From Pseudodesulfovibrio sp. 5S69 (lineage in GTDB: Bacteria; Desulfobacterota; Desulfovibrionia; Desulfovibrionales; Desulfovibrionaceae): a DNA stretch of 64,000 nucleotides. Position 1 is the first letter of the stretch; each line of letters begins with the position of its first letter. The notes beneath the pieces are model-generated. The model worked only from the letters and a program-made list of their open reading frames with translations. It searched no databases and was not told the origin of the DNA. Shown in pieces: positions 4,619 to 21,452 of the stretch. Location of the stretch: the NCBI RefSeq assembly GCF_037094465.1, contig NZ_CP146609.1, forward strand, positions 4,025,501 through 4,089,500, written 5' to 3'. The translations under genes and the position numbers were made by a program.

Positions 4619-4672
4619 ATGCCTCTGGACACCCCTTCAAAACTTTTTACCGCCGCTTCGCGGGGTGCGGCG
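4619..4672 (-). repeat. partial intergenic repeat at left edge of the tandem duplication
   Basis: Truncated repeat member (TGCCTCTGG, AAAACTTTTT, CGCCGCTTCGCGG). The 13-mer CGCCGCTTCGCGG at 4651-4663 is shared with the junction (13046-13058) and with the right edge (21438-21450) of the duplication. Confidence 0.75.
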
Positions 4673-4759
4673 CTAACCCTCACGCCCGCCCCTTGTATCC
4701 GGCATATAGACGATAAGGCAAGACGGTTTACCCCATTAATCCGAATTTACTTTCCCTGC

Positions 4760-4872
4760 GTCCCCGCGAAGCGCCCAGAAGGTTCAGGAGGGGAGAGGGA
4801 TGGGAGTCCGGGGAAGGGAGAGGGAACCCTTTCTCAAAGGGTTCCCTCTCTCCCGGCCGCCGGAGGCGCAGA
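4760..4872 (+). repeat. intergenic long-hairpin repeat, member 2
   Basis: GCGAAGCG, then AGAAGG (AAAAGG in the second copy), a G-rich spacer, the inverted repeat GGGAACCCTTTCTCAAAGGG followed by TTCCC, and GGCCGCCGGAGGC. It lies just downstream of fabF copy 1 and may end its transcripts. Confidence 0.75.
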
Positions 4873-4914
4873 AGAGGGCCGCTCAAGCGGCCCTTTTAAT
4901 TTCGTAATCGCCGG

Positions 4915-6151
4915 TTACCCGGTGAAGCGTTTGAACAGGACGCAGGCGTTGGTGCCGCCGAATCCGAAGGAGTTGGACAGGGCGTATTCGGCCTGTATCT
5001 TCTGCGGACCGTCGGCGCAGACGTCGAGGTCGCATTCCGGGTCGGGTGTTTCGCGGTTCATGGTGCCCGGGATGACGCCCTCGGCCAGGGTCTTGACGGC
5101 GAAGACCGCTTCGACGCCGCCCGCTGCGCCGAGCAGGTGCCCTATCTGGGACTTGTTGGCGCAGATCTTGATGTTGTAGGCGTGGTCGCCGAAGACCTTC
5201 TTGATGGCCCGCGTCTCGCAGAGGTCGTTCAGGTAGGTGGAGGTGCCGTGGGCGTTGATGTGGTCGATCTTCGAGGGATCGACCTTGGCCTCGCGGATGG
5301 CGGCGGCCATGGCAAAGGCCATGCCCGCTCCGTCCTCGGGCGGGGCGGTCATGTGGTAGGCGTCGCCGGACGCGCCGTAGCCGACCACCTCGGCGAGGAT
5401 GTTCGCGCCGCGCGCCTGGGCGTGTTCCAGGCTCTCCAGAAGCAGCAGGCCGCAGCCTTCGCCCATGATGAAGCCGGAGCGGTCCTTGTCAAAGGGACGG
5501 GAGGCCTTCTCGGGCTCGTCGTTGCGCACGGACAGGGCTTTCATGGCGTTGAACCCGGCCACGGCCAGGTGGGAGATGGTCGATTCGGACCCGCCGCAGA
5601 TCATGGCGTCCACGCGGCCCATGGCAATGTCGGTGTAGGCCGTGCCGATGCCGTGGGTGCCGGAGGCGCAGGCGGTGGTGGTGCAGATATTCGGTCCCAT
5701 GGCACCGGTCTCGATGGACACCTGCCCGGCGGCCATGTTGGCGATGAAGATGGGGATGAAGAAGGGCGACACTTTTTTCGGGCCACGCTTCAGCAGCTTC
5801 GAATGGCATTCCTCGATGCTTTCGAGGCCGCCCAGACCGACGCCGATGATGGTGCCGACCCGGGAACGCTCGTCCTCGGGAATGGTCCAGCCCGCATCCT
5901 GAAGGAGCATGCGCGAGGCGGCCACCGCGTACTGGGTGAACGTCTCCATGCGGCGCACTTCCTTCTTGCCGATGTACTGTTCGGGATCGAATCCCCGGAC
6001 CTCGCCCGCGATGGTCGTGGCATAGTCCGTGGTGTCGAACTTGGTGATCTGGCCGATGCCGGATTTCCCGGCCAGGAGGTTCTGCCAGCTGGTCTCGACG
6101 TCATTGCCAGGGCGTGACGGCGGCAACACTGGTAACAACTACCCTGTTCAT
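4915..6151 (-). pseudogene. fabF: fabF copy 1, frameshifted near the N-terminus (beta-ketoacyl-ACP synthase II)
   Basis: Identical to the intact copy at 13313-14551 except that two bases are missing near 6107-6116 (one C and one G, each from a run), which breaks the frame after the first dozen codons from ATG 6151. An ATG at 6138 opens the downstream frame but gives an N-terminus unlike FabF. The rest keeps the catalytic Cys (TACASGTHG) and both His motifs (NAHGTST, SQIGHLLGAAG). Either copy 1 is decaying or the two indels are sequencing errors. Gene order acpP-fabF is usual in bacteria. Confidence 0.85.
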
Positions 6152-6193
6152 AATACCTGCCCGTTGATGTGTCTGGGTTGGGGTAACGAAAAG

Positions 6194-6228
6194 GAGCGTC
6201 TTACACCACCGGGGTGCGTAAGACGCTC
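6194..6228 (-). terminator. hairpin between acpP and fabF (copy 1), possible partial terminator
   Basis: Perfect 11-bp stem GAGCGTCTTAC / GTAAGACGCTC with further inner pairing, in the 105 bp gap between acpP and fabF. On the minus strand it is followed by CTTTTCG, only a weak T-run, so partial termination or transcript processing is more likely than a full stop. It could keep acpP mRNA more abundant than fabF mRNA. Confidence 0.6.
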
Positions 6229-6256
6229 ACAATATATGTACTTTACTCGGTCAAAC

Positions 6257-6490
6257 TTAGATGGCCTTCTCGATGTGCGAGATGGCATCGCCGACCTTGA
6301 GAATCTTCTGCGCTTGCTCGTCATCGATCTCCAGGTCGAACTCCTCTTCCATGGCCATGATCAGCTCGGTCAGGTCCAGGGAGTCGGCGCCCAGGTCCTC
6401 GACAAACGCGGCGCTCTCGATGACTTCGTCTTCGGACACGCCCAGCTGATCCACGATGATCTCTTTCACTTTCGCTGCTACGTCGGACAT
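6257..6490 (-). CDS. acpP: acyl carrier protein, copy 1
   Basis: 77 residues starting MSDVAAK after GGAGGAAACT, full length for AcpP. Acidic four-helix carrier with the phosphopantetheine serine in [11 protein letters not shown]. It carries growing acyl chains for FabH/FabF/FabG/PlsX encoded in the same operon. Identical at protein level to copy 2 (14657-14890). Confidence 0.97.
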
Positions 6491-6527
6491 AGTTTCCTCC
6501 ACTACACAAATGAGTTTTTTTGCTAGA

Positions 6528-7271
6528 TTACATGTACATGCCGCCGTTCACGCCCAGCACCTGACCGGTGATGTACCCGGCTCCGGGGCCGGCCAGGAAG
6601 GAGACGGCGGCTGCGATATCCCCGGACTGCCCGAGGGTTTTTAATGGAATTTGTTCGAGCATGGCCTCGACGACCTTTTCGGGCAGCTCGGCGGTCATGT
6701 CGGTCTCGATGAAGCCGGGGGCCACGGCGTTGACCGTGATGTTGCGCCCGGCCAATTCGCGGGCGGCGGACTTGGTCAGGCCGATGAGGCCCGCCTTGGC
6801 CGCACAGTAGTTGGCCTGGCCCGCATTGCCCATCTGGCCGACGATGGACGAAATATTGATGATCCGGCCAAAGCGCTGCTTGCCCATGATCTTGGAGGCT
6901 TCCTTGAGAAAGGCGAAGCAGCCGGTGAGGTTGATGTGGATGACCTTGTCCCAGTCCTCGTCCTTCATGCGCATCATCAGGCCATCGCGGGTGATGCCCG
7001 CGTTGTTGACCAGGACCGCGAGCTCGGCCTTGCCCTTGATCTCGTCCTTGAAGAACGCTGCGATGGCCTCGCGGTCACCGGAATCGAGCTGGAAGGCGCG
7101 GGCCTTGCCGCCCGCCTTTTCGATGGACGCCACCACCTCTTCGGCGGCCTCGGGGCGGCTCACGTACGTCAGGAAAACCTCGAAACCGTCGGCGGCCAAC
7201 GTCTCGGCCACGGTACGGCCGATGCCTCGGGAACCGCCCGTAACCAGGGCGACTTTGGGAAGATCGCTCAT
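6528..7271 (-). CDS. fabG: 3-oxoacyl-ACP reductase, copy 1
   Basis: 247 residues from [13 protein letters not shown], with AGAGGG upstream. NADPH-dependent SDR reducing beta-ketoacyl-[11 protein letters not shown] nucleotide motif, NNAG, and catalytic Ser plus Tyr-x3-Lys (NISS and ANYCAAK). It lies 37 bp upstream of acpP. The 140 bp gap to fabH contains overlapping palindromes (ACCAATTGGT at 7314-7323, inside CCAATTGGTATATTGG read on the minus strand) that could be an internal promoter or operator. Copy 1 reads VVEAMLEQ where copy 2 reads VAQAMLEQ. Confidence 0.95.
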
Positions 7272-7411
7272 CTCATACCCTCTTGTCGTTCTCTTGTGGT
7301 CAGGACCCAATATACCAATTGGTCACGGACTGCAAATTGGCCCCTGGATCGTAACCAAAAAGTTTATTCACCATCTGTCCGCAAAAAGCAAACAAACAGC
7401 CGTTTCAAATC

Positions 7412-8398
7412 CTAGAACCGAATCAGGGCCGCGCCCCAGGTGAACCCGCCGCCGAAGGCGGGGATGAGGACCAGGTCGCCGGGCTTGATGAATCCGGTGT
7501 GCACGGCCTCGGTCAGGGCCACGGGAATGGCCGCGGCCGAGGTGTTGCCGTACTTGTGGATGTTGGAAAAGACGCGTTCCTCGGGGATGTCGAAGCGGCG
7601 CCCCACGGCGTCTATGATGCGGTAGTTGGCCTGGTGCGGCAGGAGCACGTCCACGTCGGACTTGGCCAGGCCGTTGCGCTTGAGGATGGCCTCGGAAATC
7701 TCGGTCATGTTGCGCACGGCGTGCTTGAAGACCTCGCGGCCCTGGAACTCGACGAAATATTCGGGACCGACGGGTTCGCCCAGCTTGTAGGAGTAGGCCG
7801 AGCCGCCGCCGTTGACCGTGAGCAGGTCGCCCAGCGAGCCGTCGGCGGCGAGCATGACGTCCAGGACTTCGGGGCCGTCGCCGGGTTCGCCGGCGGTCAG
7901 GACCGCGGCCCCGGAGGCGTCGCCGAAGAGCACACAGGTGGCCCGGTCCTCCCAGTTCATGCGCCGGGTGATGATCTCGCTGGCGACCACCAGGACCTTG
8001 GCTTCCGGCTCCAGGCAGAGCAGACCGCGCGCGGTCTGCAGGGCGTAGAGGAAGCCGGAGCAGGCGGCCGCTACGTCCATGCACATCTGTCCGGTGATGC
8101 CGAACCGCTCCTGCAGGCGGCAGGCGGCGGACGGGATGAGGGAGTCCGGGGTGAAGGTGGCGCAGATGATGTGGGTCAGTTCGGACGGGGCGATGCCCGC
8201 CTCCTCCAGTGCCTGCTTCGAGGCCTCAAGGGCCAGATCGGAAGCGGCTTGCCCCTCGGCGGCAAGATGCCGCTCCTTGATCCCGGTGCGAGAGGTGATC
8301 CACTCGTCCGAGGTATCGACGATTTTCTCGAGATCGGCGTTGGTCAGGACCTTGTCAGGGGCGTACAGGCCAAAGCCGCGAAGAATGAAATTGGTCAT
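7412..8398 (-). CDS. fabH: 3-oxoacyl-ACP synthase III, copy 1
   Basis: 328 residues, full length. It condenses acetyl-CoA (or another primer CoA) with malonyl-ACP to start fatty-acid synthesis. The catalytic triad is visible: Cys in AAACSGF, His in LLPHQANYR, Asn in GNTSAAAIP. It follows plsX by 77 bp and precedes fabG, in the plsX-fabH-fabG-acpP-fabF order common in bacteria. Identical to copy 2 (15812-16798). Confidence 0.97.
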   Translation of the reverse strand: MTNFILRGFGLYAPDKVLTNADLEKIVDTSDEWITSRTGIKERHLAAEGQAASDLALEASKQALEEAGIAPSELTHIICATFTPDSLIPSAACRLQERFGITGQMCMDVAAACSGFLYALQTARGLLCLEPEAKVLVVASEIITRRMNWEDRATCVLFGDASGAAVLTAGEPGDGPEVLDVMLAADGSLGDLLTVNGGGSAYSYKLGEPVGPEYFVEFQGREVFKHAVRNMTEISEAILKRNGLAKSDVDVLLPHQANYRIIDAVGRRFDIPEERVFSNIHKYGNTSAAAIPVALTEAVHTGFIKPGDLVLIPAFGGGFTWGAALIRF

Positions 8399-8475
8399 GG
8401 ATTGGGTGTTTATGACAATGGTACGGCGCGGTCAAGCTGCGCAAGATCTTTCACATCCCGCCGGTGCGGGATACG

Positions 8476-9525
8476 TCAGGCCGCGTCCCTGTCGGGCTTT
8501 GCGGCCAGCCCCTTGTGGGCGGCCACGCCTTCGGCCAGGTGGCCGTAGGCATTGTTGCGGACGCTGGTGGCGGCCATGCGGATACAATTGGTAATGGCCA
8601 GCTCGTTGGACTTGCCGTGGGCCACGATGACGATGTCGCGCAGGCCGAGCAGCGGGGCTCCGCCGTATTCGGCGTAGTCCACGATCTTCTTGAACCGCTT
8701 GAACGCGCCGAACGAGAGCAGCGTGCCGAGCATGGACAGCCAGCTCGACTTGAGCTCGTCCTTGAGGATGCGGCTCAGGGAGCGGGCCAGCCCTTCGGAG
8801 AGCTTCAGGGCCACGTTGCCGACAAAGCCGTCGCAGACCACGATGTCCACCTCGCCGGTGAAGATGTCACGGCCCTCGACGTTGCCGATGAACCGCAGCT
8901 GCGAACGCTTGAGCAGGTCAAAGGCCTCGCGCACGGCGGCGTTGCCCTTGCCCTCCTCCTCGCCGATGGACAGGATGCCCACGGACGGGTCCTCGATGCC
9001 CAGGACGTGCCGGGCCAGGACGTCGGCCATGAGGCCGAACTGGAGGAGATGCTGGGGCTTGGAATCCACGTTGGCGCCCACGTCGATGAGCACCACCGGG
9101 TTCTTCTCGGTGGGCAGGATGCCGGCCAGGGCCGGGCGCTGCACGCCGGGAATGCGCCCGAGGACGAACATGCCGCAGGCCACGCTCGCACCGGAGTTGC
9201 CGGCCGAAACCACGCCGTTGGCCCTGCCTTCCTTGACCAGGCGGCAGGCCACCTGGATGGAGGAGTCCTTCTTGCGGCGCAGGGCGTCGGCGGGCTTGTC
9301 GTCCATCTCGACCACCTGGGAGCAGTGGACAACTTCGATGTCCAGCCCCTTGGTGTCGAGCTTGGCGAGCTCGGCCCGAACCTTTTCCTCGTCGCCGACG
9401 AGCACTATGGCGATGCCTTCGCGTGCGGCGCTGACCGCTCCGGGCACGACGACGCCGGGCCCGAAGTCTCCCCCCATGGCGTCCACGGCGATGCGCGGAG
9501 CCTGGATTCCGTCGGTCTTAGGCAT
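8476..9525 (-). CDS. plsX: phosphate acyltransferase PlsX, copy 1 (intact)
   Basis: 349 residues from [10 protein letters not shown], with the family hallmark [12 protein letters not shown]. PlsX makes acyl-phosphate from acyl-ACP, the donor for PlsY in phospholipid synthesis; it is a peripheral membrane enzyme. The start overlaps the rpmF stop by 8 bp, indicating translational coupling. The partner gene in copy 2 (16876-17924) has a one-base deletion, so this is the only intact plsX of the window. Confidence 0.95.
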
Positions 9526-9697
9526 CTTCGCCGTCAATGACCTGGCGTCCCTTGTAGGAGCCGCAGACAGAGCAGGCACGATGGGGCAGAGTGGGCTCAC
9601 CGCACTCGCAGTAGATGACGTTGGGAGCGGCGATCTTGTCGTGGGAACGGCGCATGCCCTTGCGGGACTTGGACGTTTTCTTCTTGGGGACAGCCAT
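9518..9697 (-). CDS. rpmF: 50S ribosomal protein L32, copy 1
   Basis: 59 residues starting [20 protein letters not shown], the universal L32 N-terminus. Four cysteines (CEC...CSVC) form a zinc ribbon, so this is the zinc-binding type of L32. Between yceD and plsX, the usual yceD-rpmF-plsX arrangement. Its stop overlaps the plsX start. Confidence 0.96.
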
Positions 9698-9757
9698 GAT
9701 ATATACCTCGTATTGATTTGTTCTCAGCCGGTTGCCGGAGCGCTCCGGGCAAGGGCG

Positions 9758-10280
9758 TTACTTTATCTTCAAGTCGCGGAAAACCGCAAGCCTTTCGTCG
9801 CCCTCATCCGGCTTGCAGGTGCACTTGCCGGTATTGAGGTTGGCGCCGCAGCCGGGGCAGACGCCCTTGCAGTCCTCGCCGCACAGGGGCTTGAACGGCA
9901 GGGCCAGGGCGAATTCCTCCCAGAGGATGGCGCCCATGTCGAGTTCCAACCGGCCGTTCTCCACGCGGATGCGCGGCTCGCCGTCGGTCTCCTCGCCGTC
10001 GGGCAACTGCTCGAAGGCGTCGAAGGCCGTGTCGATCTCGAACGGAAACGGCTCGGCGCAACGGTCGCAGACCAGCAGGACGGAACCCTTGAGGGTGCCG
10101 CGCACCAGCGCCCCATCGTCGGACTGGGGGCAGGACCGTGTATTCGGCCACCAGGTCGCGGTCCGGACGGATCTCCAGCTTGAATTCGCGCCACGCCTCG
10201 CGCCAGAAGTTCTGGTCGTCGAAGGTGAAGCCCCGGCCCTCTGCGGCAATGTCGCTGATCGTCAGCCAGAATTCAACCAT
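9758..10280 (-). pseudogene. yceD: yceD/DUF177 protein, copy 1, frameshifted
   Basis: The start MVEFWLTISDIAAEGR (ATG 10280) and the end ERLAVFRDLKIK are both normal but lie in different frames: an extra G in the run at 10126-10130 shifts the frame after about 50 codons. The family (YceD/DUF177) is linked to 23S rRNA maturation and is almost always next to rpmF. Cysteine pairs (LVCDRC and CGEDCKGVCPGC) suggest a metal site. Copy 2 (18168-18677) is open except for its last few residues. Confidence 0.85.
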
Positions 10281-10352
10281 GGTATTCTCCGTTTTTCTCC
10301 GGTCCGTTTCGTCCCGGCGCGGCCCGGCCCCACGGCCGGACAACCGGTGCTT

Positions 10353-10380
10353 CCTATATGGTAATAAAATCTCCTGTCAA
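10353..10380 (-). promoter_or_regulatory. sigma-70 promoter of the yceD-rpmF-plsX-fab operon, copy 1
   Basis: On the minus strand TTGACA, 16 bp, TATAGG, about 75 bp upstream of the yceD start. The best -35 match in the neighbourhood, in the divergent yceD/rpmB gap. Confidence 0.65.
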
Positions 10381-10391
10381 GAAAAAAACCC

Positions 10392-10420
10392 TTGCCATTT
10401 GTTGCCGGGCTCGGTAAGGA
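10392..10420 (+). promoter_or_regulatory. sigma-70 promoter of rpmB, copy 1
   Basis: TTGCCA, 17 bp, TAAGGA, about 90 bp upstream of the rpmB start, back to back with the yceD promoter. Confidence 0.5.
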
Positions 10421-10512
10421 TTCTCTCCCGCTGCCTGGAGAAGCTACCATGATCCGGCGGCCTTTTACGAGCGAAAACGAATCATTTCCTTAGAATACAT
10501 CAGGAGGTCGCA

Positions 10513-10728
10513 ATGTCCCAGGTTTGCGATATTTGTGGAAAGGGTCCCCAGAGCGGCAACAACGTCAGCCACTCCCACATCAAGACCAAGCGCCGCTTCA
10601 TGCCCAACCTGCAGAAGGTCCGGCACCAGTTGGAGTCCGGCCAGGTCGTCAGCATCAAGGCCTGCACCCGCTGCATCCGCAACGGTGCGGTGGTCAAGCC
10701 GGTGGCTTCCCAGAAGCCCGAAGCCTAA
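10513..10728 (+). CDS. rpmB: 50S ribosomal protein L28, copy 1
   Basis: 71 residues, full length for L28 ([19 protein letters not shown] is characteristic). Two CxxC pairs (CDIC, CTRC) make it the zinc-ribbon type. A near-perfect ribosome site AGGAGGT precedes the ATG. Divergent from yceD and followed by a strong terminator, so it is a single-gene unit. Identical to copy 2. Confidence 0.97.
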
Positions 10729-10754
10729 GCCCCGCAACACATTTCGAGTGCGAG

Positions 10755-10788
10755 AAGTTGCCGCCGAATACTCGGCGGCAACTTTTTT
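10755..10788 (+). terminator. rho-independent terminator of rpmB, copy 1
   Basis: Stem AAGTTGCCGCCGA / TCGGCGGCAACTT with loop ATAC and a terminal T-run. Confidence 0.92.
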
Positions 10789-10874
10789 GCGCCTTGCGGC
10801 CAGCGGTTGAACCTGCCCTGTCCCGCGCCCGTCCGGGCGCGCGGCGCTCTCCTCTCCCAGCCTCTCCACGCCTT

Positions 10875-10922
10875 CTTGTGCAAGATAATGCCCGCTCTGG
10901 GCGCAAGCCTTTGCACCCTTGC
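10875..10922 (+). promoter_or_regulatory. candidate ZraR-type enhancer sites, SHOCT gene copy 1
   Basis: Contains the 10-bp palindrome CTTGTGCAAG (10875-10884) and further TTGCAC half-sites (TTTGCACCCTTGCACG) 58-105 bp upstream of a sigma-54 promoter. The same half-site vocabulary (TGTGCA/TTGCAC) occurs upstream of zraP at 35108-35155. Confidence 0.5.
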
Positions 10923-10979
10923 ACGTCCCCAGCTCTGGACTGATTCTGACAACACACTGAAATATCATCGTAAATATTT

Positions 10980-10994
10980 TGGCACGGTCCATGC
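10980..10994 (+). promoter_or_regulatory. sigma-54 promoter of the SHOCT gene, copy 1
   Basis: TGGCACGGTCCATGC: GG and GC dinucleotides 10 bp apart, a full -24/-12 match. Differs at 2 of 15 positions from the zraP promoter at 35030-35044. The ATG follows 31 bp later with GGAGG. Confidence 0.75.
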
Positions 10995-11025
10995 TTATTC
11001 CAGACAAACACGCTCTGGAGGCTCC

Positions 11026-11320
11026 ATGAACTATCTGACCACATTCGGAAACTGGTGTTCCGGCCCGGGATTCGGGCACGGCGCAGGCTTCGGCGGCTGG
11101 TCCGGCAGCATGAGCATGGGCCTGGGCTTTCCTTTCGGGGGGGATCGTCCAGCTTCTTATCCTGGGCCTGATCATATATTTCACGGTGCGCCTGATCCGG
11201 AAACCCGCCACACATTCGGGACCGGGCACGCCGGTGGATGTCCTCAAACGCCGATACGCGGCCGGTGAAATCGACCGGGAAACGTATCGCGCCATGAAGG
11301 ATGAGCTCAGCAACAGCTAA
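11026..11320 (+). pseudogene. SHOCT-domain small membrane protein, copy 1, frameshifted
   Basis: Same gene as 19423-19716 but with seven instead of six G at 11137-11143, which shifts the frame after residue 38, just before the membrane segment. The start (after CTGGAGGCTCC) and sigma-54 promoter are unaltered. Possibly a sequencing error in a G-run. See copy 2 for the protein description. Confidence 0.8.
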
Positions 11321-11343
11321 TGGACATACACACCTCCCCAAGC

Positions 11344-11382
11344 AAAGGCCCCCGCCGGACTCTCCTTCCGGCGGGGGCTTTT
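11344..11382. terminator. bidirectional terminator between SHOCT gene and gltX, copy 1
   Basis: Stem AAAGGCCCCCGCCGGA / TCCGGCGGGGGCTTTT; serves the two convergent genes. Confidence 0.9.
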
Positions 11383-11434
11383 CGCGTCCCTTTTCAAGGG
11401 GAAAGCGGGGCGAACCGGCTGACGCCGGAAACCG

Positions 11435-12833
11435 CTACAACTCCACCGCCCTCCGGATGCGGGCCAAGGTCTGCTCCCTGCCGAGCACGACCATGGTCTC
11501 GAACAGGCCGGGCGACTGGGTCTTGCCGGTGATGGCCACGCGGATGGGCTGGGCGATGACCTTGAACTTGATGCCCTTCTCCTCGATGAACTGCCGGTGC
11601 ACGTCCTCCAGGGCGGCCTCGGTGAACTCGGAAAGCGCTTCCAGGCGGTCCGCGATCTCCGCGAGCAGCGGCTTGGTCTCCCCCGGTCAGGAACTTCTGC
11701 ACCGCGGCCTCGTCGTAGGACAGGAAGGACGCGTCCACGATGAACGGCCGCGCCTGCTCCAGCATGTCGAGCACGGACTTGGCACGCGGCTGCAACAGCG
11801 GCGCGATCCTGGCGAACTGCTCTCGGGTCACGGACCCGGCCTCCTCCTCGCCCACTTCGCGGGCCAGGAAGTCGCAGAGCATCCCGGCCAGCCGGTCCGG
11901 GTCGGCCTTCTGCATGTACTGGCCGTTGACCCACTCGAACTTGGTCAGGTCGAAGACCGACGGCGAGTTGCCCAGGCCGTCCGTGGTGAACAGCTCGACC
12001 ATTTCGTCCATGGTGAACAGCTCCTGGTCGCCGTGGGACCAGCCCAGCCGCGCCAGATAGTTGGTCACGGCCTCGGGCAGATAGCCCATCTTCTCGTACT
12101 CCATGACCGACAGCGCGCCGTGGCGCTTGGAAAGCTTCTTCTTGTCCGGGCCGAGGATCATGGGCACGTGGCCGAACTCCGGCACGTCCCAGCCCATGGC
12201 CCGGTAGATCAGAATCTGGCGCGGGGTGTTGTTCACGTGGTCGTCGCCGCGCAGCACGCGGTTCACGTCCATGTCGTGGTCGTCCACCACCACGGCCAGG
12301 TTGTAGGTCGGCGTGCCGTCCGAGCGGCGCAGGATCATGTCGTCCATCTCGGCGTTCTCCACCGAGATGTACCCCTTGACCATGTCCTTGTACCCGGTGG
12401 CGCCCTCCTGCGGGGCCTTCAGCCGGACCACGCCCGAGGTCAGCCCCTTGTCGCGGCAGGTGCCGTCGTACTTGGGCTTGCGGCCTTCCTTCATGGCCCG
12501 CTCGCGCATGGCGTCCACGTCTTCCTTGCTGCAATCGCAATAATAGGCGTGGCCCGAGGCGATGAGCTGGTCGATGACTTCATTGTGCCGGTCCGCGCGG
12601 GTGGACTGGAAGACGATCTCGCCGTCGTGTTCGAGCCCCAGCCAGCGCATGGAATCGATGATGGCGTCGGTCGCCTCCTGCGTGGACCGCTCGCGGTCCG
12701 TGTCCTCGATGCGCAGGCGGAACTCACCGCCCTGGGACCGGGCCAGCAGCCAGGAAAACAACGCGGTGCGCGCACCGCCGATATGCAGAAACCCGGTCGG
12801 GCTCGGCGCAAAACGGGAAACGATCTTGGTCAT
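11435..12833 (-). pseudogene. gltX: gltX copy 1, frameshifted (glutamyl-tRNA synthetase)
   Basis: One extra C in the run at 11686-11691 shifts the frame about 80 codons before the normal end, within the anticodon-binding region; everything upstream (HIGG, KLSKRHG, the CDC...C zinc site) is intact and matches copy 2. If real, the product would lack its normal anticodon-binding C-terminus and probably fail. Copy 2 (19831-21228) is intact, so charging of tRNA-Glu would rest on it. Confidence 0.85.
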
Positions 12834-12837
12834 ATGA

Positions 12838-13062: not shown

Positions 13063-13155
13063 CGGCGCTAACCCTCACGCCCGCCCCTTGTATCCGGCAT
13101 ATAGACGATAAGGCAAGACGGTTTACCCCATTAATCCGAATTTACTTTCCCTGCG

Positions 13156-13268
13156 TCCCCGCGAAGCGCCCAAAAGGTTCAGGAGGGAGAGGGATGGAGG
13201 TCCGGGGAAGAGGAGAGGGAACCCTTCTCTAAAGGGTTCCCTCTCCCTCCCGGCCGCCGGAGGCGCAA
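13156..13268 (+). repeat. intergenic long-hairpin repeat, member downstream of fabF copy 2
   Basis: Counterpart of 4760-4872, differing by several small indels and substitutions, mainly in the A- and G-runs and one arm of the hairpin (ACCCTTCTCTAAAGGGT). Confidence 0.75.
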
Positions 13269-13312
13269 AAAAAGGGCCGCTCAAGCGGCCCTTTTAATTT
13301 TGTAATCGCCGG

Positions 13313-14551
13313 TTACCCGGTGAAGCGTTTGAACAGGACGCAGGCGTTGGTGCCGCCGAATCCGAAGGAGTTGGACAGGGCGTATTCGGCCTGTATCTTC
13401 TGCGGACCGTCGGCGCAGACGTCGAGGTCGCATTCCGGGTCGGGTGTTTCGCGGTTCATGGTGCCCGGGATGACGCCCTCGGCCAGGGTCTTGACGGCGA
13501 AGACCGCTTCGACGCCGCCCGCTGCGCCGAGCAGGTGCCCTATCTGGGACTTGTTGGCGCAGATCTTGATGTTGTAGGCGTGGTCGCCGAAGACCTTCTT
13601 GATGGCCCGCGTCTCGCAGAGGTCGTTCAGGTAGGTGGAGGTGCCGTGGGCGTTGATGTGGTCGATCTTCGAGGGATCGACCTTGGCCTCGCGGATGGCG
13701 GCGGCCATGGCAAAGGCCATGCCCGCTCCGTCCTCGGGCGGGGCGGTCATGTGGTAGGCGTCGCCGGACGCGCCGTAGCCGACCACCTCGGCGAGGATGT
13801 TCGCGCCGCGCGCCTGGGCGTGTTCCAGGCTCTCCAGAAGCAGCAGGCCGCAGCCTTCGCCCATGATGAAGCCGGAGCGGTCCTTGTCAAAGGGACGGGA
13901 GGCCTTCTCGGGCTCGTCGTTGCGCACGGACAGGGCTTTCATGGCGTTGAACCCGGCCACGGCCAGGTGGGAGATGGTCGATTCGGACCCGCCGCAGATC
14001 ATGGCGTCCACGCGGCCCATGGCAATGTCGGTGTAGGCCGTGCCGATGCCGTGGGTGCCGGAGGCGCAGGCGGTGGTGGTGCAGATATTCGGTCCCATGG
14101 CACCGGTCTCGATGGACACCTGCCCGGCGGCCATGTTGGCGATGAAGATGGGGATGAAGAAGGGCGACACTTTTTTCGGGCCACGCTTCAGCAGCTTCGA
14201 ATGGCATTCCTCGATGCTTTCGAGGCCGCCCAGACCGACGCCGATGATGGTGCCGACCCGGGAACGCTCGTCCTCGGGAATGGTCCAGCCCGCATCCTGA
14301 AGGAGCATGCGCGAGGCGGCCACCGCGTACTGGGTGAACGTCTCCATGCGGCGCACTTCCTTCTTGCCGATGTACTGTTCGGGATCGAATCCCCGGACCT
14401 CGCCCGCGATGGTCGTGGCATAGTCCGTGGTGTCGAACTTGGTGATCTGGCCGATGCCGGATTTCCCGGCCAGGAGGTTCTGCCAGCTGGTCTCGACGTC
14501 ATTGCCCAGGGGCGTGACGGCGGCAACACTGGTAACAACTACCCTGTTCAT
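13313..14551 (-). CDS. fabF: 3-oxoacyl-ACP synthase II, copy 2 (intact)
   Basis: 412 residues, full length, starting MNRVVVTSVAAVTPLGND. Elongates acyl-ACP by condensation with malonyl-ACP. Thiolase fold with catalytic Cys in TACASGTHG and His residues in NAHGTST and SQIGHLLGAAG; ends FGGTNACVLF as usual. Separated from acpP by a hairpin. The only frame-intact fabF of the window. Confidence 0.97.
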   Translation of the reverse strand: MNRVVVTSVAAVTPLGNDVETSWQNLLAGKSGIGQITKFDTTDYATTIAGEVRGFDPEQYIGKKEVRRMETFTQYAVAASRMLLQDAGWTIPEDERSRVGTIIGVGLGGLESIEECHSKLLKRGPKKVSPFFIPIFIANMAAGQVSIETGAMGPNICTTTACASGTHGIGTAYTDIAMGRVDAMICGGSESTISHLAVAGFNAMKALSVRNDEPEKASRPFDKDRSGFIMGEGCGLLLLESLEHAQARGANILAEVVGYGASGDAYHMTAPPEDGAGMAFAMAAAIREAKVDPSKIDHINAHGTSTYLNDLCETRAIKKVFGDHAYNIKICANKSQIGHLLGAAGGVEAVFAVKTLAEGVIPGTMNRETPDPECDLDVCADGPQKIQAEYALSNSFGFGGTNACVLFKRFTG

Positions 14552-14593
14552 AATACCTGCCCGTTGATGTGTCTGGGTTGGGGTAACGAAAAG

Positions 14594-14628
14594 GAGCGTC
14601 TTACACCACCGGGGTGCGTAAGACGCTC
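14594..14628 (-). terminator. hairpin between acpP and fabF (copy 2), possible partial terminator
   Basis: Same 11-bp perfect stem as at 6194-6228 with no strong T-run. Confidence 0.6.
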
Positions 14629-14656
14629 ACAATATATGTACTTTACTCGGTCAAAC

Positions 14657-14890
14657 TTAGATGGCCTTCTCGATGTGCGAGATGGCATCGCCGACCTTGA
14701 GAATCTTCTGCGCTTGCTCGTCATCGATCTCCAGGTCGAACTCCTCTTCCATGGCCATGATCAGCTCGGTCAGGTCCAGGGAGTCGGCGCCCAGGTCCTC
14801 GACAAACGCGGCGCTCTCGATGACTTCGTCTTCGGACACGCCCAGCTGATCCACGATGATCTCTTTCACTTTCGCTGCTACGTCGGACAT
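14657..14890 (-). CDS. acpP: acyl carrier protein, copy 2
   Basis: Identical to copy 1: 77 residues, phosphopantetheine site GADSLDL, GGAGG ribosome site. Two functional acpP copies would raise ACP dosage together with FabG and FabH. Confidence 0.97.
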
Positions 14891-14927
14891 AGTTTCCTCC
14901 ACTACACAAATGAGTTTTTTTGCTAGA

Positions 14928-15671
14928 TTACATGTACATGCCGCCGTTCACGCCCAGCACCTGACCGGTGATGTACCCGGCTCCGGGGCCGGCCAGGAAG
15001 GAGACGGCGGCTGCGATATCCCCGGACTGCCCGAGGGTTTTTAATGGAATTTGTTCGAGCATGGCCTGAGCGACCTTTTCGGGCAGCTCGGCGGTCATGT
15101 CGGTCTCGATGAAGCCGGGGGCCACGGCGTTGACCGTGATGTTGCGCCCGGCCAATTCGCGGGCGGCGGACTTGGTCAGGCCGATGAGGCCCGCCTTGGC
15201 CGCACAGTAGTTGGCCTGGCCCGCATTGCCCATCTGGCCGACGATGGACGAAATATTGATGATCCGGCCAAAGCGCTGCTTGCCCATGATCTTGGAGGCT
15301 TCCTTGAGAAAGGCGAAGCAGCCGGTGAGGTTGATGTGGATGACCTTGTCCCAGTCCTCGTCCTTCATGCGCATCATCAGGCCATCGCGGGTGATGCCCG
15401 CGTTGTTGACCAGGACCGCGAGCTCGGCCTTGCCCTTGATCTCGTCCTTGAAGAACGCTGCGATGGCCTCGCGGTCACCGGAATCGAGCTGGAAGGCGCG
15501 GGCCTTGCCGCCCGCCTTTTCGATGGACGCCACCACCTCTTCGGCGGCCTCGGGGCGGCTCACGTACGTCAGGAAAACCTCGAAACCGTCGGCGGCCAAC
15601 GTCTCGGCCACGGTACGGCCGATGCCTCGGGAACCGCCCGTAACCAGGGCGACTTTGGGAAGATCGCTCAT
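14928..15671 (-). CDS. fabG: 3-oxoacyl-ACP reductase, copy 2
   Basis: 247 residues, as copy 1 with all SDR motifs, but residues in the [18 protein letters not shown] region read VAQAML instead of VVEAML because three bases near 15068-15071 differ. This is not a mononucleotide-run slip and so is the clearest true sequence difference between the copies. The same upstream palindromes are present at 15707-15723. Confidence 0.95.
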
Positions 15672-15811
15672 CTCATACCCTCTTGTCGTTCTCTTGTGGT
15701 CAGGACCCAATATACCAATTGGTCACGGACTGCAAATTGGCCCCTGGATCGTAACCAAAAAGTTTATTCACCATCTGTCCGCAAAAAGCAAACAAACAGC
15801 CGTTTCAAATC

Positions 15812-16798
15812 CTAGAACCGAATCAGGGCCGCGCCCCAGGTGAACCCGCCGCCGAAGGCGGGGATGAGGACCAGGTCGCCGGGCTTGATGAATCCGGTGT
15901 GCACGGCCTCGGTCAGGGCCACGGGAATGGCCGCGGCCGAGGTGTTGCCGTACTTGTGGATGTTGGAAAAGACGCGTTCCTCGGGGATGTCGAAGCGGCG
16001 CCCCACGGCGTCTATGATGCGGTAGTTGGCCTGGTGCGGCAGGAGCACGTCCACGTCGGACTTGGCCAGGCCGTTGCGCTTGAGGATGGCCTCGGAAATC
16101 TCGGTCATGTTGCGCACGGCGTGCTTGAAGACCTCGCGGCCCTGGAACTCGACGAAATATTCGGGACCGACGGGTTCGCCCAGCTTGTAGGAGTAGGCCG
16201 AGCCGCCGCCGTTGACCGTGAGCAGGTCGCCCAGCGAGCCGTCGGCGGCGAGCATGACGTCCAGGACTTCGGGGCCGTCGCCGGGTTCGCCGGCGGTCAG
16301 GACCGCGGCCCCGGAGGCGTCGCCGAAGAGCACACAGGTGGCCCGGTCCTCCCAGTTCATGCGCCGGGTGATGATCTCGCTGGCGACCACCAGGACCTTG
16401 GCTTCCGGCTCCAGGCAGAGCAGACCGCGCGCGGTCTGCAGGGCGTAGAGGAAGCCGGAGCAGGCGGCCGCTACGTCCATGCACATCTGTCCGGTGATGC
16501 CGAACCGCTCCTGCAGGCGGCAGGCGGCGGACGGGATGAGGGAGTCCGGGGTGAAGGTGGCGCAGATGATGTGGGTCAGTTCGGACGGGGCGATGCCCGC
16601 CTCCTCCAGTGCCTGCTTCGAGGCCTCAAGGGCCAGATCGGAAGCGGCTTGCCCCTCGGCGGCAAGATGCCGCTCCTTGATCCCGGTGCGAGAGGTGATC
16701 CACTCGTCCGAGGTATCGACGATTTTCTCGAGATCGGCGTTGGTCAGGACCTTGTCAGGGGCGTACAGGCCAAAGCCGCGAAGAATGAAATTGGTCAT
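15812..16798 (-). CDS. fabH: 3-oxoacyl-ACP synthase III, copy 2
   Basis: 328 residues, identical in protein sequence to copy 1, with catalytic Cys (AAACSGF), His (HQANYR) and Asn (GNTSA). Lies downstream of the frameshifted plsX copy 2, so coupling to plsX translation may be disturbed here. Confidence 0.97.
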   Translation of the reverse strand: MTNFILRGFGLYAPDKVLTNADLEKIVDTSDEWITSRTGIKERHLAAEGQAASDLALEASKQALEEAGIAPSELTHIICATFTPDSLIPSAACRLQERFGITGQMCMDVAAACSGFLYALQTARGLLCLEPEAKVLVVASEIITRRMNWEDRATCVLFGDASGAAVLTAGEPGDGPEVLDVMLAADGSLGDLLTVNGGGSAYSYKLGEPVGPEYFVEFQGREVFKHAVRNMTEISEAILKRNGLAKSDVDVLLPHQANYRIIDAVGRRFDIPEERVFSNIHKYGNTSAAAIPVALTEAVHTGFIKPGDLVLIPAFGGGFTWGAALIRF

Positions 16799-16875
16799 GG
16801 ATTGGGTGTTTATGACAATGGTACGGCGCGGTCAAGCTGCGCAAGATCTTTCACATCCCGCCGGTGCGGGATACG

Positions 16876-17924
16876 TCAGGCCGCGTCCCTGTCGGGCTTT
16901 GCGGCCAGCCCCTTGTGGGCGGCCACGCCTTCGGCCAGGTGGCCGTAGGCATTGTTGCGGACGCTGGTGGCGGCCATGCGGATACAATTGGTAATGGCCA
17001 GCTCGTTGGACTTGCCGTGGGCCACGATGACGATGTCGCGCAGGCCGAGCAGCGGGGCTCCGCCGTATTCGGCGTAGTCCACGATCTTCTTGAACCGCTT
17101 GAACGCGCCGAACGAGAGCAGCGTGCCGAGCATGGACAGCCAGCTCGACTTGAGCTCGTCCTTGAGGATGCGGCTCAGGGAGCGGGCCAGCCCTTCGGAG
17201 AGCTTCAGGGCCACGTTGCCGACAAAGCCGTCGCAGACCACGATGTCCACCTCGCCGGTGAAGATGTCACGGCCCTCGACGTTGCCGATGAACCGCAGCT
17301 GCGAACGCTTGAGCAGGTCAAAGGCCTCGCGCACGGCGGCGTTGCCTTGCCCTCCTCCTCGCCGATGGACAGGATGCCCACGGACGGGTCCTCGATGCCC
17401 AGGACGTGCCGGGCCAGGACGTCGGCCATGAGGCCGAACTGGAGGAGATGCTGGGGCTTGGAATCCACGTTGGCGCCCACGTCGATGAGCACCACCGGGT
17501 TCTTCTCGGTGGGCAGGATGCCGGCCAGGGCCGGGCGCTGCACGCCGGGAATGCGCCCGAGGACGAACATGCCGCAGGCCACGCTCGCACCGGAGTTGCC
17601 GGCCGAAACCACGCCGTTGGCCCTGCCTTCCTTGACCAGGCGGCAGGCCACCTGGATGGAGGAGTCCTTCTTGCGGCGCAGGGCGTCGGCGGGCTTGTCG
17701 TCCATCTCGACCACCTGGGAGCAGTGGACAACTTCGATGTCCAGCCCCTTGGTGTCGAGCTTGGCGAGCTCGGCCCGAACCTTTTCCTCGTCGCCGACGA
17801 GCACTATGGCGATGCCTTCGCGTGCGGCGCTGACCGCTCCGGGCACGACGACGCCGGGCCCGAAGTCTCCCCCCATGGCGTCCACGGCGATGCGCGGAGC
17901 CTGGATTCCGTCGGTCTTAGGCAT
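16876..17924 (-). pseudogene. plsX: plsX copy 2, frameshifted
   Basis: One C is missing in GTTGCCTTGC near 17344 relative to copy 1 (GTTGCCCTTGC). The N-terminal half (MPKTDG... to [10 protein letters not shown]) reads normally and then leaves the frame; the C-terminal 150 residues stay open in the neighbouring frame. Copy 1 at 8476-9525 is intact. Confidence 0.85.
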
Positions 17925-18096
17925 CTTCGCCGTCAATGACCTGGCGTCCCTTGTAGGAGCCGCAGACAGAGCAGGCACGATGGGGCAGAGTGGGCTCACC
18001 GCACTCGCAGTAGATGACGTTGGGAGCGGCGATCTTGTCGTGGGAACGGCGCATGCCCTTGCGGGACTTGGACGTTTTCTTCTTGGGGACAGCCAT
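17917..18096 (-). CDS. rpmF: 50S ribosomal protein L32, copy 2
   Basis: 59 residues, identical to copy 1, with the four-Cys zinc ribbon; the stop overlaps the plsX start by 8 bp. Confidence 0.96.
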
Positions 18097-18167
18097 GATA
18101 TATACCTCGTATTGATTTGTTCTCAGCCGGTTGCCGGAGCGCTCCGGGCAAGGGCGTTACTTTATCT

Positions 18168-18677
18168 TCAAGTCGCGGAAACCGCAAGCCTTTCGTCGCC
18201 CTCATCCGGCTTGCAGGTGCACTTGCCGGTATTGAGGTTGGCGCCGCAGCCGGGGCAGACGCCCTTGCAGTCCTCGCCGCACAGGGGCTTGAACGGCAGG
18301 GCCAGGGCGAATTCCTCCCAGAGGATGGCGCCCATGTCGAGTTCCAACCGGCCGTTCTCCACGCGGATGCGCGGCTCGCCGTCGGTCTCCTCGCCGTCGG
18401 GCAACTGCTCGAAGGCGTCGAAGGCCGTGTCGATCTCGAACGGAAACGGCTCGGCGCAACGGTCGCAGACCAGCAGGACGGAACCCTTGAGGGTGCCGCG
18501 CACCAGCGCCCCATCGTCGGACTGGGGCAGGACCGTGTATTCGGCCACCAGGTCGCGGTCCGGACGGATCTCCAGCTTGAATTCGCGCCACGCCTCGCGC
18601 CAGAAGTTCTGGTCGTCGAAGGTGAAGCCCCGGCCCTCTGCGGCAATGTCGCTGATCGTCAGCCAGAATTCAACCAT
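18168..18677 (-). CDS. yceD: yceD/DUF177 protein, copy 2 (altered C-terminus)
   Basis: 169 residues from MVEFWLTISDIAAEGR. Open through the Cys-rich C-terminal part, but a missing A at 18178-18181 replaces the final FRDLKIK of copy 1 with SAT. Only the last few residues are affected, so function may be kept. Known context: YceD family next to rpmF, with a role in 23S rRNA handling. It is the better of the two copies. Confidence 0.85.
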   Translation of the reverse strand: MVEFWLTISDIAAEGRGFTFDDQNFWREAWREFKLEIRPDRDLVAEYTVLPQSDDGALVRGTLKGSVLLVCDRCAEPFPFEIDTAFDAFEQLPDGEETDGEPRIRVENGRLELDMGAILWEEFALALPFKPLCGEDCKGVCPGCGANLNTGKCTCKPDEGDERLAVSAT

Positions 18678-18749
18678 GGTATTCTCCGTTTTTCTCCGGT
18701 CCGTTTCGTCCCGGCGCGGCCCGGCCCCACGGCCGGACAACCGGTGCTT

Positions 18750-18777
18750 CCTATATGGTAATAAAATCTCCTGTCAA
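18750..18777 (-). promoter_or_regulatory. sigma-70 promoter of the yceD-fab operon, copy 2
   Basis: TTGACA, 16 bp, TATAGG on the minus strand, identical to the copy-1 promoter at 10353-10380. Confidence 0.65.
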
Positions 18778-18788
18778 GAAAAAAACCC

Positions 18789-18817
18789 TTGCCATTTGTT
18801 GCCGGGCTCGGTAAGGA
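18789..18817 (+). promoter_or_regulatory. sigma-70 promoter of rpmB, copy 2
   Basis: TTGCCA, 17 bp, TAAGGA, same as copy 1. Confidence 0.5.
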
Positions 18818-18909
18818 TTCTCTCCCGCTGCCTGGAGAAGCTACCATGATCCGGCGGCCTTTTACGAGCGAAAACGAATCATTTCCTTAGAATACATCAG
18901 GAGGTCGCA

Positions 18910-19125
18910 ATGTCCCAGGTTTGCGATATTTGTGGAAAGGGTCCCCAGAGCGGCAACAACGTCAGCCACTCCCACATCAAGACCAAGCGCCGCTTCATGC
19001 CCAACCTGCAGAAGGTCCGGCACCAGTTGGAGTCCGGCCAGGTCGTCAGCATCAAGGCCTGCACCCGCTGCATCCGCAACGGTGCGGTGGTCAAGCCGGT
19101 GGCTTCCCAGAAGCCCGAAGCCTAA
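18910..19125 (+). CDS. rpmB: 50S ribosomal protein L28, copy 2
   Basis: 71 residues, identical to copy 1; CDIC/CTRC zinc ribbon and AGGAGGT ribosome site. Confidence 0.97.
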
Positions 19126-19151
19126 GCCCCGCAACACATTTCGAGTGCGAG

Positions 19152-19185
19152 AAGTTGCCGCCGAATACTCGGCGGCAACTTTTTT
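19152..19185 (+). terminator. rho-independent terminator of rpmB, copy 2
   Basis: Same stem and T-run as at 10755-10788. Confidence 0.92.
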
Positions 19186-19271
19186 GCGCCTTGCGGCCAG
19201 CGGTTGAACCTGCCCTGTCCCGCGCCCGTCCGGGCGCGCGGCGCTCTCCTCTCCCAGCCTCTCCACGCCTT

Positions 19272-19319
19272 CTTGTGCAAGATAATGCCCGCTCTGGGCG
19301 CAAGCCTTTGCACCCTTGC
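19272..19319 (+). promoter_or_regulatory. candidate ZraR-type enhancer sites, SHOCT gene copy 2
   Basis: CTTGTGCAAG palindrome at 19272-19281 and TTGCAC half-sites downstream, as in copy 1. Confidence 0.5.
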
Positions 19320-19376
19320 ACGTCCCCAGCTCTGGACTGATTCTGACAACACACTGAAATATCATCGTAAATATTT

Positions 19377-19391
19377 TGGCACGGTCCATGC
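19377..19391 (+). promoter_or_regulatory. sigma-54 promoter of the SHOCT gene, copy 2
   Basis: TGGCACGGTCCATGC, identical to copy 1. Confidence 0.75.
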
Positions 19392-19422
19392 TTATTCCAG
19401 ACAAACACGCTCTGGAGGCTCC

Positions 19423-19716
19423 ATGAACTATCTGACCACATTCGGAAACTGGTGTTCCGGCCCGGGATTCGGGCACGGCGCAGGCTTCGGCGGCTGGTCC
19501 GGCAGCATGAGCATGGGCCTGGGCTTTCCTTTCGGGGGGATCGTCCAGCTTCTTATCCTGGGCCTGATCATATATTTCACGGTGCGCCTGATCCGGAAAC
19601 CCGCCACACATTCGGGACCGGGCACGCCGGTGGATGTCCTCAAACGCCGATACGCGGCCGGTGAAATCGACCGGGAAACGTATCGCGCCATGAAGGATGA
19701 GCTCAGCAACAGCTAA
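19423..19716 (+). CDS. SHOCT-domain small membrane protein, copy 2 (intact)
   Basis: 97 residues after a TGGAGG ribosome site. Order: a Gly/Met/His/Trp-rich N-terminal stretch (GPGFGHGAGFGGWSG), one membrane segment (IVQLLILGLIIYFTV), a short basic linker, and a C-terminal SHOCT motif (LKRRYAAGEIDRETYRAMK). SHOCT domains are short oligomerisation or interaction motifs often tied to envelope proteins. Transcription from a sigma-54 promoter with TTGTGCA palindromes like zraP suggests a role in the same envelope metal-stress response; this is inference. Its Gly/Met/His-rich stretch recalls the tail of ZraP. Confidence 0.8.
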   Translation: MNYLTTFGNWCSGPGFGHGAGFGGWSGSMSMGLGFPFGGIVQLLILGLIIYFTVRLIRKPATHSGPGTPVDVLKRRYAAGEIDRETYRAMKDELSNS

Positions 19717-19739
19717 TGGACATACACACCTCCCCAAGC

Positions 19740-19778
19740 AAAGGCCCCCGCCGGACTCTCCTTCCGGCGGGGGCTTTT
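19740..19778. terminator. bidirectional terminator between SHOCT gene and gltX, copy 2
   Basis: Same GC-rich stem as at 11344-11382 with A- and T-runs on either side. Confidence 0.9.
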
Positions 19779-19830
19779 CGCGTCCCTTTTCAAGGGGAAA
19801 GCGGGGCGAACCGGCTGACGCCGGAAACCG

Positions 19831-21228
19831 CTACAACTCCACCGCCCTCCGGATGCGGGCCAAGGTCTGCTCCCTGCCGAGCACGACCATGGTCTCGAAC
19901 AGGCCGGGCGACTGGGTCTTGCCGGTGATGGCCACGCGGATGGGCTGGGCGATGACCTTGAACTTGATGCCCTTCTCCTCGATGAACTGCCGGTGCACGT
20001 CCTCCAGGGCGGCCTCGGTGAACTCGGAAAGCGCTTCCAGGCGGTCCGCGATCTCCGCGAGCAGCGGCTTGGTCTCCCCGGTCAGGAACTTCTGCACCGC
20101 GGCCTCGTCGTAGGACAGGAAGGACGCGTCCACGATGAACGGCCGCGCCTGCTCCAGCATGTCGAGCACGGACTTGGCACGCGGCTGCAACAGCGGCGCG
20201 ATCCTGGCGAACTGCTCTCGGGTCACGGACCCGGCCTCCTCCTCGCCCACTTCGCGGGCCAGGAAGTCGCAGAGCATCCCGGCCAGCCGGTCCGGGTCGG
20301 CCTTCTGCATGTACTGGCCGTTGACCCACTCGAACTTGGTCAGGTCGAAGACCGACGGCGAGTTGCCCAGGCCGTCCGTGGTGAACAGCTCGACCATTTC
20401 GTCCATGGTGAACAGCTCCTGGTCGCCGTGGGACCAGCCCAGCCGCGCCAGATAGTTGGTCACGGCCTCGGGCAGATAGCCCATCTTCTCGTACTCCATG
20501 ACCGACAGCGCGCCGTGGCGCTTGGAAAGCTTCTTCTTGTCCGGGCCGAGGATCATGGGCACGTGGCCGAACTCCGGCACGTCCCAGCCCATGGCCCGGT
20601 AGATCAGAATCTGGCGCGGGGTGTTGTTCACGTGGTCGTCGCCGCGCAGCACGCGGTTCACGTCCATGTCGTGGTCGTCCACCACCACGGCCAGGTTGTA
20701 GGTCGGCGTGCCGTCCGAGCGGCGCAGGATCATGTCGTCCATCTCGGCGTTCTCCACCGAGATGTACCCCTTGACCATGTCCTTGTACCCGGTGGCGCCC
20801 TCCTGCGGGGCCTTCAGCCGGACCACGCCCGAGGTCAGCCCCTTGTCGCGGCAGGTGCCGTCGTACTTGGGCTTGCGGCCTTCCTTCATGGCCCGCTCGC
20901 GCATGGCGTCCACGTCTTCCTTGCTGCAATCGCAATAATAGGCGTGGCCCGAGGCGATGAGCTGGTCGATGACTTCATTGTGCCGGTCCGCGCGGGTGGA
21001 CTGGAAGACGATCTCGCCGTCGTGTTCGAGCCCCAGCCAGCGCATGGAATCGATGATGGCGTCGGTCGCCTCCTGCGTGGACCGCTCGCGGTCCGTGTCC
21101 TCGATGCGCAGGCGGAACTCACCGCCCTGGGACCGGGCCAGCAGCCAGGAAAACAACGCGGTGCGCGCACCGCCGATATGCAGAAACCCGGTCGGGCTCG
21201 GCGCAAAACGGGAAACGATCTTGGTCAT
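19831..21228 (-). CDS. gltX: glutamyl-tRNA synthetase, copy 2 (intact)
   Basis: 465 residues, usual length for bacterial GluRS. Class I signature FAPSPTGFLHIGGARTA near the N-terminus, KLSKRHG as the KMSKS equivalent, and a zinc-knuckle-like YYCDC ... YDGTC. Attaches Glu to tRNA-Glu. Convergent with the SHOCT gene; the hairpin repeats begin directly upstream of its start. The start ATG 21228 gives MTKIVSRFAPSPTG. Confidence 0.97.
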   Translation of the reverse strand: MTKIVSRFAPSPTGFLHIGGARTALFSWLLARSQGGEFRLRIEDTDRERSTQEATDAIIDSMRWLGLEHDGEIVFQSTRADRHNEVIDQLIASGHAYYCDCSKEDVDAMRERAMKEGRKPKYDGTCRDKGLTSGVVRLKAPQEGATGYKDMVKGYISVENAEMDDMILRRSDGTPTYNLAVVVDDHDMDVNRVLRGDDHVNNTPRQILIYRAMGWDVPEFGHVPMILGPDKKKLSKRHGALSVMEYEKMGYLPEAVTNYLARLGWSHGDQELFTMDEMVELFTTDGLGNSPSVFDLTKFEWVNGQYMQKADPDRLAGMLCDFLAREVGEEEAGSVTREQFARIAPLLQPRAKSVLDMLEQARPFIVDASFLSYDEAAVQKFLTGETKPLLAEIADRLEALSEFTEAALEDVHRQFIEEKGIKFKVIAQPIRVAITGKTQSPGLFETMVVLGREQTLARIRRAVEL

Positions 21229-21234
21229 ATGAAT

Positions 21235-21452
21235 GCCTCCGGCGGCCAGGGAACCTTTTGAAAAAGGTTCCCTGGACCCTCCAAAACTTTTTATCGCCGC
21301 TTCGCGGATGGTGCGAACGCGGTGTACATTAAATTATATGTACCGCCGACGCGGGGGTGCCTCCGGCGGCCAGGGCGCTGCCTGGACCCGCTTAAGAACC
21401 TTCTGGAGAAGGTCTTAGGATCTCCAGAGCTCTTTAGCGCCGCTTCGCGGAT
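21235..21452 (-). repeat. two intergenic long-hairpin repeats at the right edge of the duplication
   Basis: Counterparts of 12838-13062. The second has a degraded stem (CCTTCTGGAGAAGGTCTTAGG versus the perfect palindrome in copy 1) and A-runs interrupted by G. It ends in CGCCGCTTCGCGG at 21438-21450, after which the sequence is unique. Confidence 0.75.

Follow-up and report, generated by a model that had tools for sequence, protein, structure and literature searches.

Does Pseudodesulfovibrio sp. 5S69, an oil-field sulfate-reducing bacterium, carry a core gene block twice in tandem, or was one copy set down twice during the assembly? The question is raised by the window analysed here, a stretch of 64,000 nucleotides comprising bases 4,025,501–4,089,500 of the single 4,161,161-base contig NZ_CP146609.1 (source genome G000), in which an 8.4-kb unit is repeated. 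On balance, the sequence favours a recent tandem duplication of the block (gltX, rpmB, yceD, rpmF, plsX, fabH, fabG, acpP, fabF), which was probably present in the DNA that was sequenced.

The two copies of the unit were delimited by self-alignment of the window and have no strand assigned:

4651..13045: copy A of the 8.4-kb unit
13046..21450: copy B of the 8.4-kb unit, including the right-hand 13-mer

In this self-alignment, positions 4635–13064 matched positions 13030–21458 with 99.6% identity over 8440 columns (13 mismatches and 19 gap openings). Two direct copies of one segment thus lie next to each other, as expected of a tandem duplication, which bears out the near-identity and tandem order claimed in a preliminary description of the window. 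The constant offset claimed there did not hold. The offset is 8395 at 4650, 8400 at 6668, 8394 at 12986, and 8392 between the 13-mers at 13046 and 21438; it drifts between 8392 and 8400 because small insertions and deletions separate the copies. When the unit was used as a query, it gave two full matches in the genome, and the other pieces found among the best 40 of 545 first-look candidates were at most 132 bases long.

Single copies in relatives also fit a tandem duplication. A plsX query, for which the best 12 first-look candidates per genome were scored, matched 35 of the 36 genomes of the genus. The genome of 5S69 gave two full-length matches and 34 relatives gave one long match, each covering at least 1003 of the 1125 query bases, with extra matches of only 28 to 54 bases. 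Among the 35 other genomes searched, G042 (87% complete) gave no plsX match. In the relatives G012, G009, and G006, the block is present once and is colinear with both flanks. The gltX gene of G003 is more distant.

The joint between the copies consists of the following features:

13046..13058, plus strand: joint, exact 13-mer CGCCGCTTCGCGG, common to the left edge (4651–4663) and the right edge (21438–21450)
12962..13058, plus strand: hairpin element at the joint, 94.8% identical to the left edge of the block in G012 (5 substitutions, 0 gaps) and 91.8% to the right edge in the window
13042..13071, plus strand: perfect inverted repeat at the joint, 10 bp with a 10-base loop

The 13-mer was found exactly at 4651, 13046, and 21438, that is, at all three positions where it had been placed, as well as at 12900 and 21295 (5 matches vs a mean of 0.02 in 100 shuffles). 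Examined by eye, the bases shared at the joint number exactly 13. The base before them is that of the right edge and not of the left, and the base after them is that of the left edge and not of the right. Right-edge sequence therefore stands to the left of the shared bases and left-edge sequence to the right, as at the junction of a duplication, though the left side of the joint is only 91.8% identical to the right edge (97 columns, 5 substitutions, and 3 gap columns). The flank identity proposed earlier is thus exact for the 13-mer and approximate for the left side of the joint.

The joint element reads like well-determined DNA, because the 114-base stretch 12962–13075 folds with a z of −5.65 and the match to the left edge in G012 is gapless. 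The left-edge counterpart of the joint inverted repeat (4647–4676) has a mismatch in one arm (by eye). As the joint element is slightly closer to the G012 left edge than to the right edge in the window, the crossover switch could fall anywhere from about 12962 to 13058. Nevertheless, the five joint positions that differ from G012 all agree with the right edge (by eye), and the 13-mer is therefore favoured as the crossover place, as originally suggested. The simplest reading of the joint is a tandem duplication joined in a short common repeat.

Both breakpoints of the unit are intergenic. The right one lies within a dispersed hairpin element and the left one within 26 bases resembling the end of this element, which G012 carries whole at that place. 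Such a pair of breakpoints is hardly expected from a random chimeric read. The duplication would have arisen by exchange or slipped replication between hairpin repeats of the same orientation in the flanking intergenic gaps. Thirteen bases are short for efficient RecA exchange, so slippage or annealing would be the likelier route. Both the existence of the joint in the cells and the route of its formation are what we infer from these features.

The hairpin family itself is modular and dispersed in 5S69 and its relatives; it consists of GCCTCCGGCGGC, one or two hairpins, CTCCAAAACTTTTT, and CGCCGCTTCGCGG. Its members in the window are located at 4765–4890, 12838–13058, and 21233–21620. Two edge queries gave 44 and 69 matches in the genome among the matches listed, with 40 candidates scored per query and palindromic matches counted on both strands. 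An Rfam scan of the window revealed no family at the gathering score. The earlier assignment of the 13-mer to the hairpin family stands for the right edge, which belongs to the family (44 matches); the left edge of copy A is connected to the family only via the 26 bases.

On the minus strand, the gene order in the unit is gltX, yceD, rpmF, plsX, fabH, fabG, acpP, and fabF. The genes and open frames of the two copies are listed below:

4915..6151 (upper limit approximate), minus strand: fabF copy A, broken at about 6108, which leaves the first 15 residues in another frame
13313..14551, minus strand: fabF copy B, open, 412 residues
6260..6502 (copy A) and 14660..14902 (copy B), minus strand: acpP, stop codon excluded
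6528..7310 (copy A) and 14928..15710 (copy B), minus strand: fabG, with a three-base block change at 15068 in copy B
7412..8398 (copy A) and 15812..16798 (copy B), minus strand: fabH
8476..9600, minus strand: plsX copy A, open; its start is probably placed too far upstream, because it overlaps rpmF
16879..17999, minus strand: plsX copy B, frameshift at 17344
9521..9706 (copy A) and within 17920..18135 (copy B counterpart), minus strand: rpmF (L32)
9761..10343, minus strand: yceD (DUF177) copy A, frameshift at 10126
18180..18740, minus strand: yceD copy B, last ~7 residues altered by a loss at 18178
10513..10728 (copy A) and 18910..19125 (copy B, same length), plus strand: rpmB (L28)
10957..11341 (copy A, split at 11137) and 19354..19737 (copy B, whole), minus strand: open frame without a Pfam match, conserved in G012, which may not be a gene
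11438..12833, minus strand: gltX copy A, frameshift at 11680, which therefore puts the anticodon-binding domain out of frame
19831..21228, minus strand: gltX copy B, open, 465 residues

rpmB is indeed present in both copies; its strand is plus, whereas the other named genes are on the minus strand. As these frames show, the earlier suggestion that the fatty-acid, ribosomal-protein, and glutamyl-tRNA synthetase genes would all be doubled does not agree with the assembly, which has frameshifts in fabF, yceD, and gltX of copy A and in plsX and the yceD tail of copy B. Of the earlier interpretation, the duplication joined in a short repeat is retained and the complete doubling is not. The frameshifts had been missed in the preliminary description, as had the run-length pattern of the differences and the divergence of the outer edges.

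The kind of the differences points to their source. In the interior of the unit (4904–12985), the copies differ at seven sites, namely 6108, 6668, 8945, 9780, 10126, 11137, and 11680, with an eighth site at 12986. At five of them, the length of a run changes by one base, and site 6108 comprises two adjoining run-length changes (by eye); the runs concerned have 2 to 7 bases. The remaining site, 6668/15068, is a block of three adjacent changed bases of equal length. Run-length insertions and deletions thus account for 6 of the 7 interior sites, as expected of consensus errors, a pattern from which the outer edges deviate. No isolated substitution was found in the interior of about 8 kb. The same stretch compared with G012 has 628 mismatches in 7946 columns, and substitution is therefore the usual mode of change here. 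Copy A departs from the relatives at 6108, 10126, 11137, and 11680 and copy B at 15068, 17344, 18178, and 21380, where the evidence comes from G012 only for 21380, in effect from G012 only for 11137, and from relatives among which G003 differs from the other three for 18178.

The presumed errors are concentrated in the repeated stretch. Inside the unit, 3 of the 12 gene copies were split vs 1 of the 130 scorable ones outside (Fisher p 0.0018). By the same criterion, copy A had 4 whole and 2 split genes and copy B had 5 whole and 1 split. Outside the unit, 196 open-frame queries from G012 gave 129 whole, 1 split, and 15 partial matches and 51 without a match, the 15 and the 51 being left unscored; the queries were picked by length and GC pattern, so false frames are possible among them. 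Neither the broken fabF start of copy A nor the altered yceD tail of copy B is caught by the split criterion.

The published genome of strain 5S69T, described as Pseudodesulfovibrio methanolicus, was assembled with Flye 2.8 from 432,002 Nanopore reads (1.05 Gb) and polished by two rounds of Pilon 1.22, according to the sequencing passage of the paper (PMC11505543). The polishing reads are taken here to be the MiSeq set, on which this passage is not explicit. The paper reports 19 pseudogenes, and the string "duplicat" occurs in its main text in one place, on other genes (PMC11505543). As stated in sections of the paper on Polypolish, run-length changes are the common long-read error, and long-read errors in repeats often survive polishing (PMC8812927). 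Since the interior differences are nearly all of the run-length kind, long-read consensus error is indicated, and these differences are most likely Nanopore consensus errors, neither divergence nor decay. They resemble the repeat errors described in the same sections, which concern mostly homopolymer length and arise where reads align preferentially to the instance of a repeat that is free of errors (PMC8812927). Because the other instance then stays uncorrected, errors may be present in both copies and none of them need be real. Judging by the kind and place of the errors and by the published pipeline, the copies, once duplicated, would compete for reads, so that polishing would leave Nanopore consensus errors in both. 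The rRNA operons, as true repeats, would have allowed a comparison of error rates, but RF00177 gave no match in the genome.

The outer edges of the unit are divergent to an unexpected degree:

21357..21450, plus strand: outer right edge, the same element as at the joint with 5 substitutions and 3 one-base losses
4601..4663, plus strand: outer left edge of copy A, without two hairpin modules seen at the joint and in G012
4778..4903, plus strand: left part of copy A differing from copy B, hairpin element and fabF terminator region

Of the element, the outer left edge of copy A retains the final 26 bases, one of which is mismatched to the joint; about 50 bases of hairpin that the joint carries are absent from this edge (53 gap columns). 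Compared with −5.65 for the joint stretch, the fold z of the outer edges is −0.10 (left) and −2.72 (right). In the left 253 columns of the unit that follow the 13-mer, 6 substitutions and 7 gap columns separate the copies. Nine edge substitutions could be polarised against G012 by eye, four at the left edge of copy A and five at the right edge of copy B, the other edge differences resisting this treatment; all nine are changes from A/T to G/C. Near 4832, in the loop, it may be copy B that deviates. The edge differences are not explained by age, because nine changes in about 350 bases would mean, by a rough estimate, well over a hundred in the interior, where no isolated substitution was seen. 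Our guess is that purine-rich and hairpin-rich sequence was left uncorrected in one copy. The divergent hairpin edges exceed the simple run-length errors of the Polypolish study as far as its sections describe them (PMC8812927). Gene conversion from other hairpin elements was considered as well and is not favoured, because three of the differences (4871, 4874, and 4903) were seen by eye to fall within or next to the fabF terminator and not in the dispersed element. A motif count over 66 loci, some of which overlap, revealed A/G and T/C variants at these motif positions in other elements of the genome, and real variation at these positions is possible.

Several observations weigh against a real duplication. 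The outer edges are divergent and hold all nine polarised substitutions, which a clean recent duplication does not predict; the left edge of copy A is without the hairpins that the joint carries and is not among the 44 listed matches of the element, so that 26 bases are what ties it to the family; and the mean Nanopore read, computed from the published totals, is about 2.4 kb, far shorter than the unit. Longer reads are likely to have been present, since reads above 8.4 kb would give 35x coverage if the lengths were assumed to be exponential. Some of these observations also speak for an assembly artefact, in which the chromosome has one copy and the unit was laid down twice via a false link between the repeat edges. 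The error-rich copies and noisy outer edges mark the stretch as badly resolved, the reads are short on average, and the 34 other genomes of the genus with a long plsX match have one copy. We regard such an artefact as possible but doubtful. The joint reads cleanly, exactly 13 of its bases recur at both edges, the shared element of about 100 bases is below the overlaps that long-read assemblers normally demand, and a ligation chimera has no reason to strike matching positions of two repeats.

A related source of the repeat, an untrimmed overlap of the contig ends, was set aside. The first and last 20 kb of the record gave no match to each other at E 1e-8, and reading frames are open across its ends. 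The three DnaA-domain matches lie at least 557 kb from base 1, and the record does not start at dnaA. The ends thus close cleanly away from the joint, which also speaks against an artefact, and the claim that a contig-end overlap is unlikely holds as far as the record shows. A point for the artefact is that the record might conceivably have been rotated from an earlier seam lying at the joint.

More than two copies, or cells mixed in copy number, might have been collapsed to two by the assembler, as the joint looks better determined than the outer edges, as if it were covered by more reads. This evidence is indirect, the look of the joint could also result if polishing fixed one copy and left the other, and we consider such a collapse quite improbable. 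Little credence is likewise given to its more specific form, a copy-number-variable array in which dispersed hairpin repeats bracket the fatty-acid, ribosomal-protein, and glutamyl-tRNA synthetase block and allow some of the cells to amplify it to more than two copies, which the assembly would have collapsed. An older real duplication with complementary decay, each copy keeping genes that the other lost, might be read from fabF and gltX being open only in copy B and plsX only in copy A, yet it is scarcely credible and was set aside on the kind of the differences: beside seven sites of other kinds there is no isolated substitution in about 8 kb, seven insertions or deletions in a row would have a chance of about 2e-6 if these made up an assumed 15% of mutations, run-length changes are the common long-read error, and yceD is wholly intact in neither copy.

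The neighbours of the unit are the following:

3173..4459, minus strand: glyA (serine hydroxymethyltransferase), left neighbour
21631..21912, minus strand: NifU-like domain protein, right neighbour

Upstream of glyA, a non-coding leader (4461–4603) is recognisable in 6 of 11 relatives, some loci of which may be cut short; it has no Rfam match at the gathering score and is a possible cis-acting RNA. Elsewhere in the window, a 183-base direct repeat (27647–27828 and 28768–28950, 94.5% identity) lies near the one split frame detected outside the unit (about 28929–29436), and a near-palindrome at 59521–59591 is 88.9% identical to its own reverse complement (72 columns).

The tandem duplication favoured here resembles those described in excerpts of the study of Pseudomonas fluorescens SBW25, which are direct tandem copies with one new junction (PMC7661048). 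According to these excerpts, one SBW25 junction has intergenic repeats at both of its sides and others are without obvious homology between the endpoints; the duplications are 45–290 kb long, arose in laboratory evolution, and were verified from coverage as well as by PCR and Sanger sequencing (PMC7661048), whereas the unit in 5S69 is 8.4 kb long and known from the assembly alone.

Whichever explanation holds, the frameshifts in fabF, plsX, gltX, and yceD are not to be taken as pseudogenes, and the copy number of the block is unfit for use until the read depth is checked. Duplications of this kind are usually lost again via recombination between the copies. The event is of an ordinary kind, and where doubled genes are broken in the assembly, uncorrected sequencing errors are most likely the cause. 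A real duplication would be a further spontaneous tandem case, one that concerns core genes and was met in the culture of a type strain.

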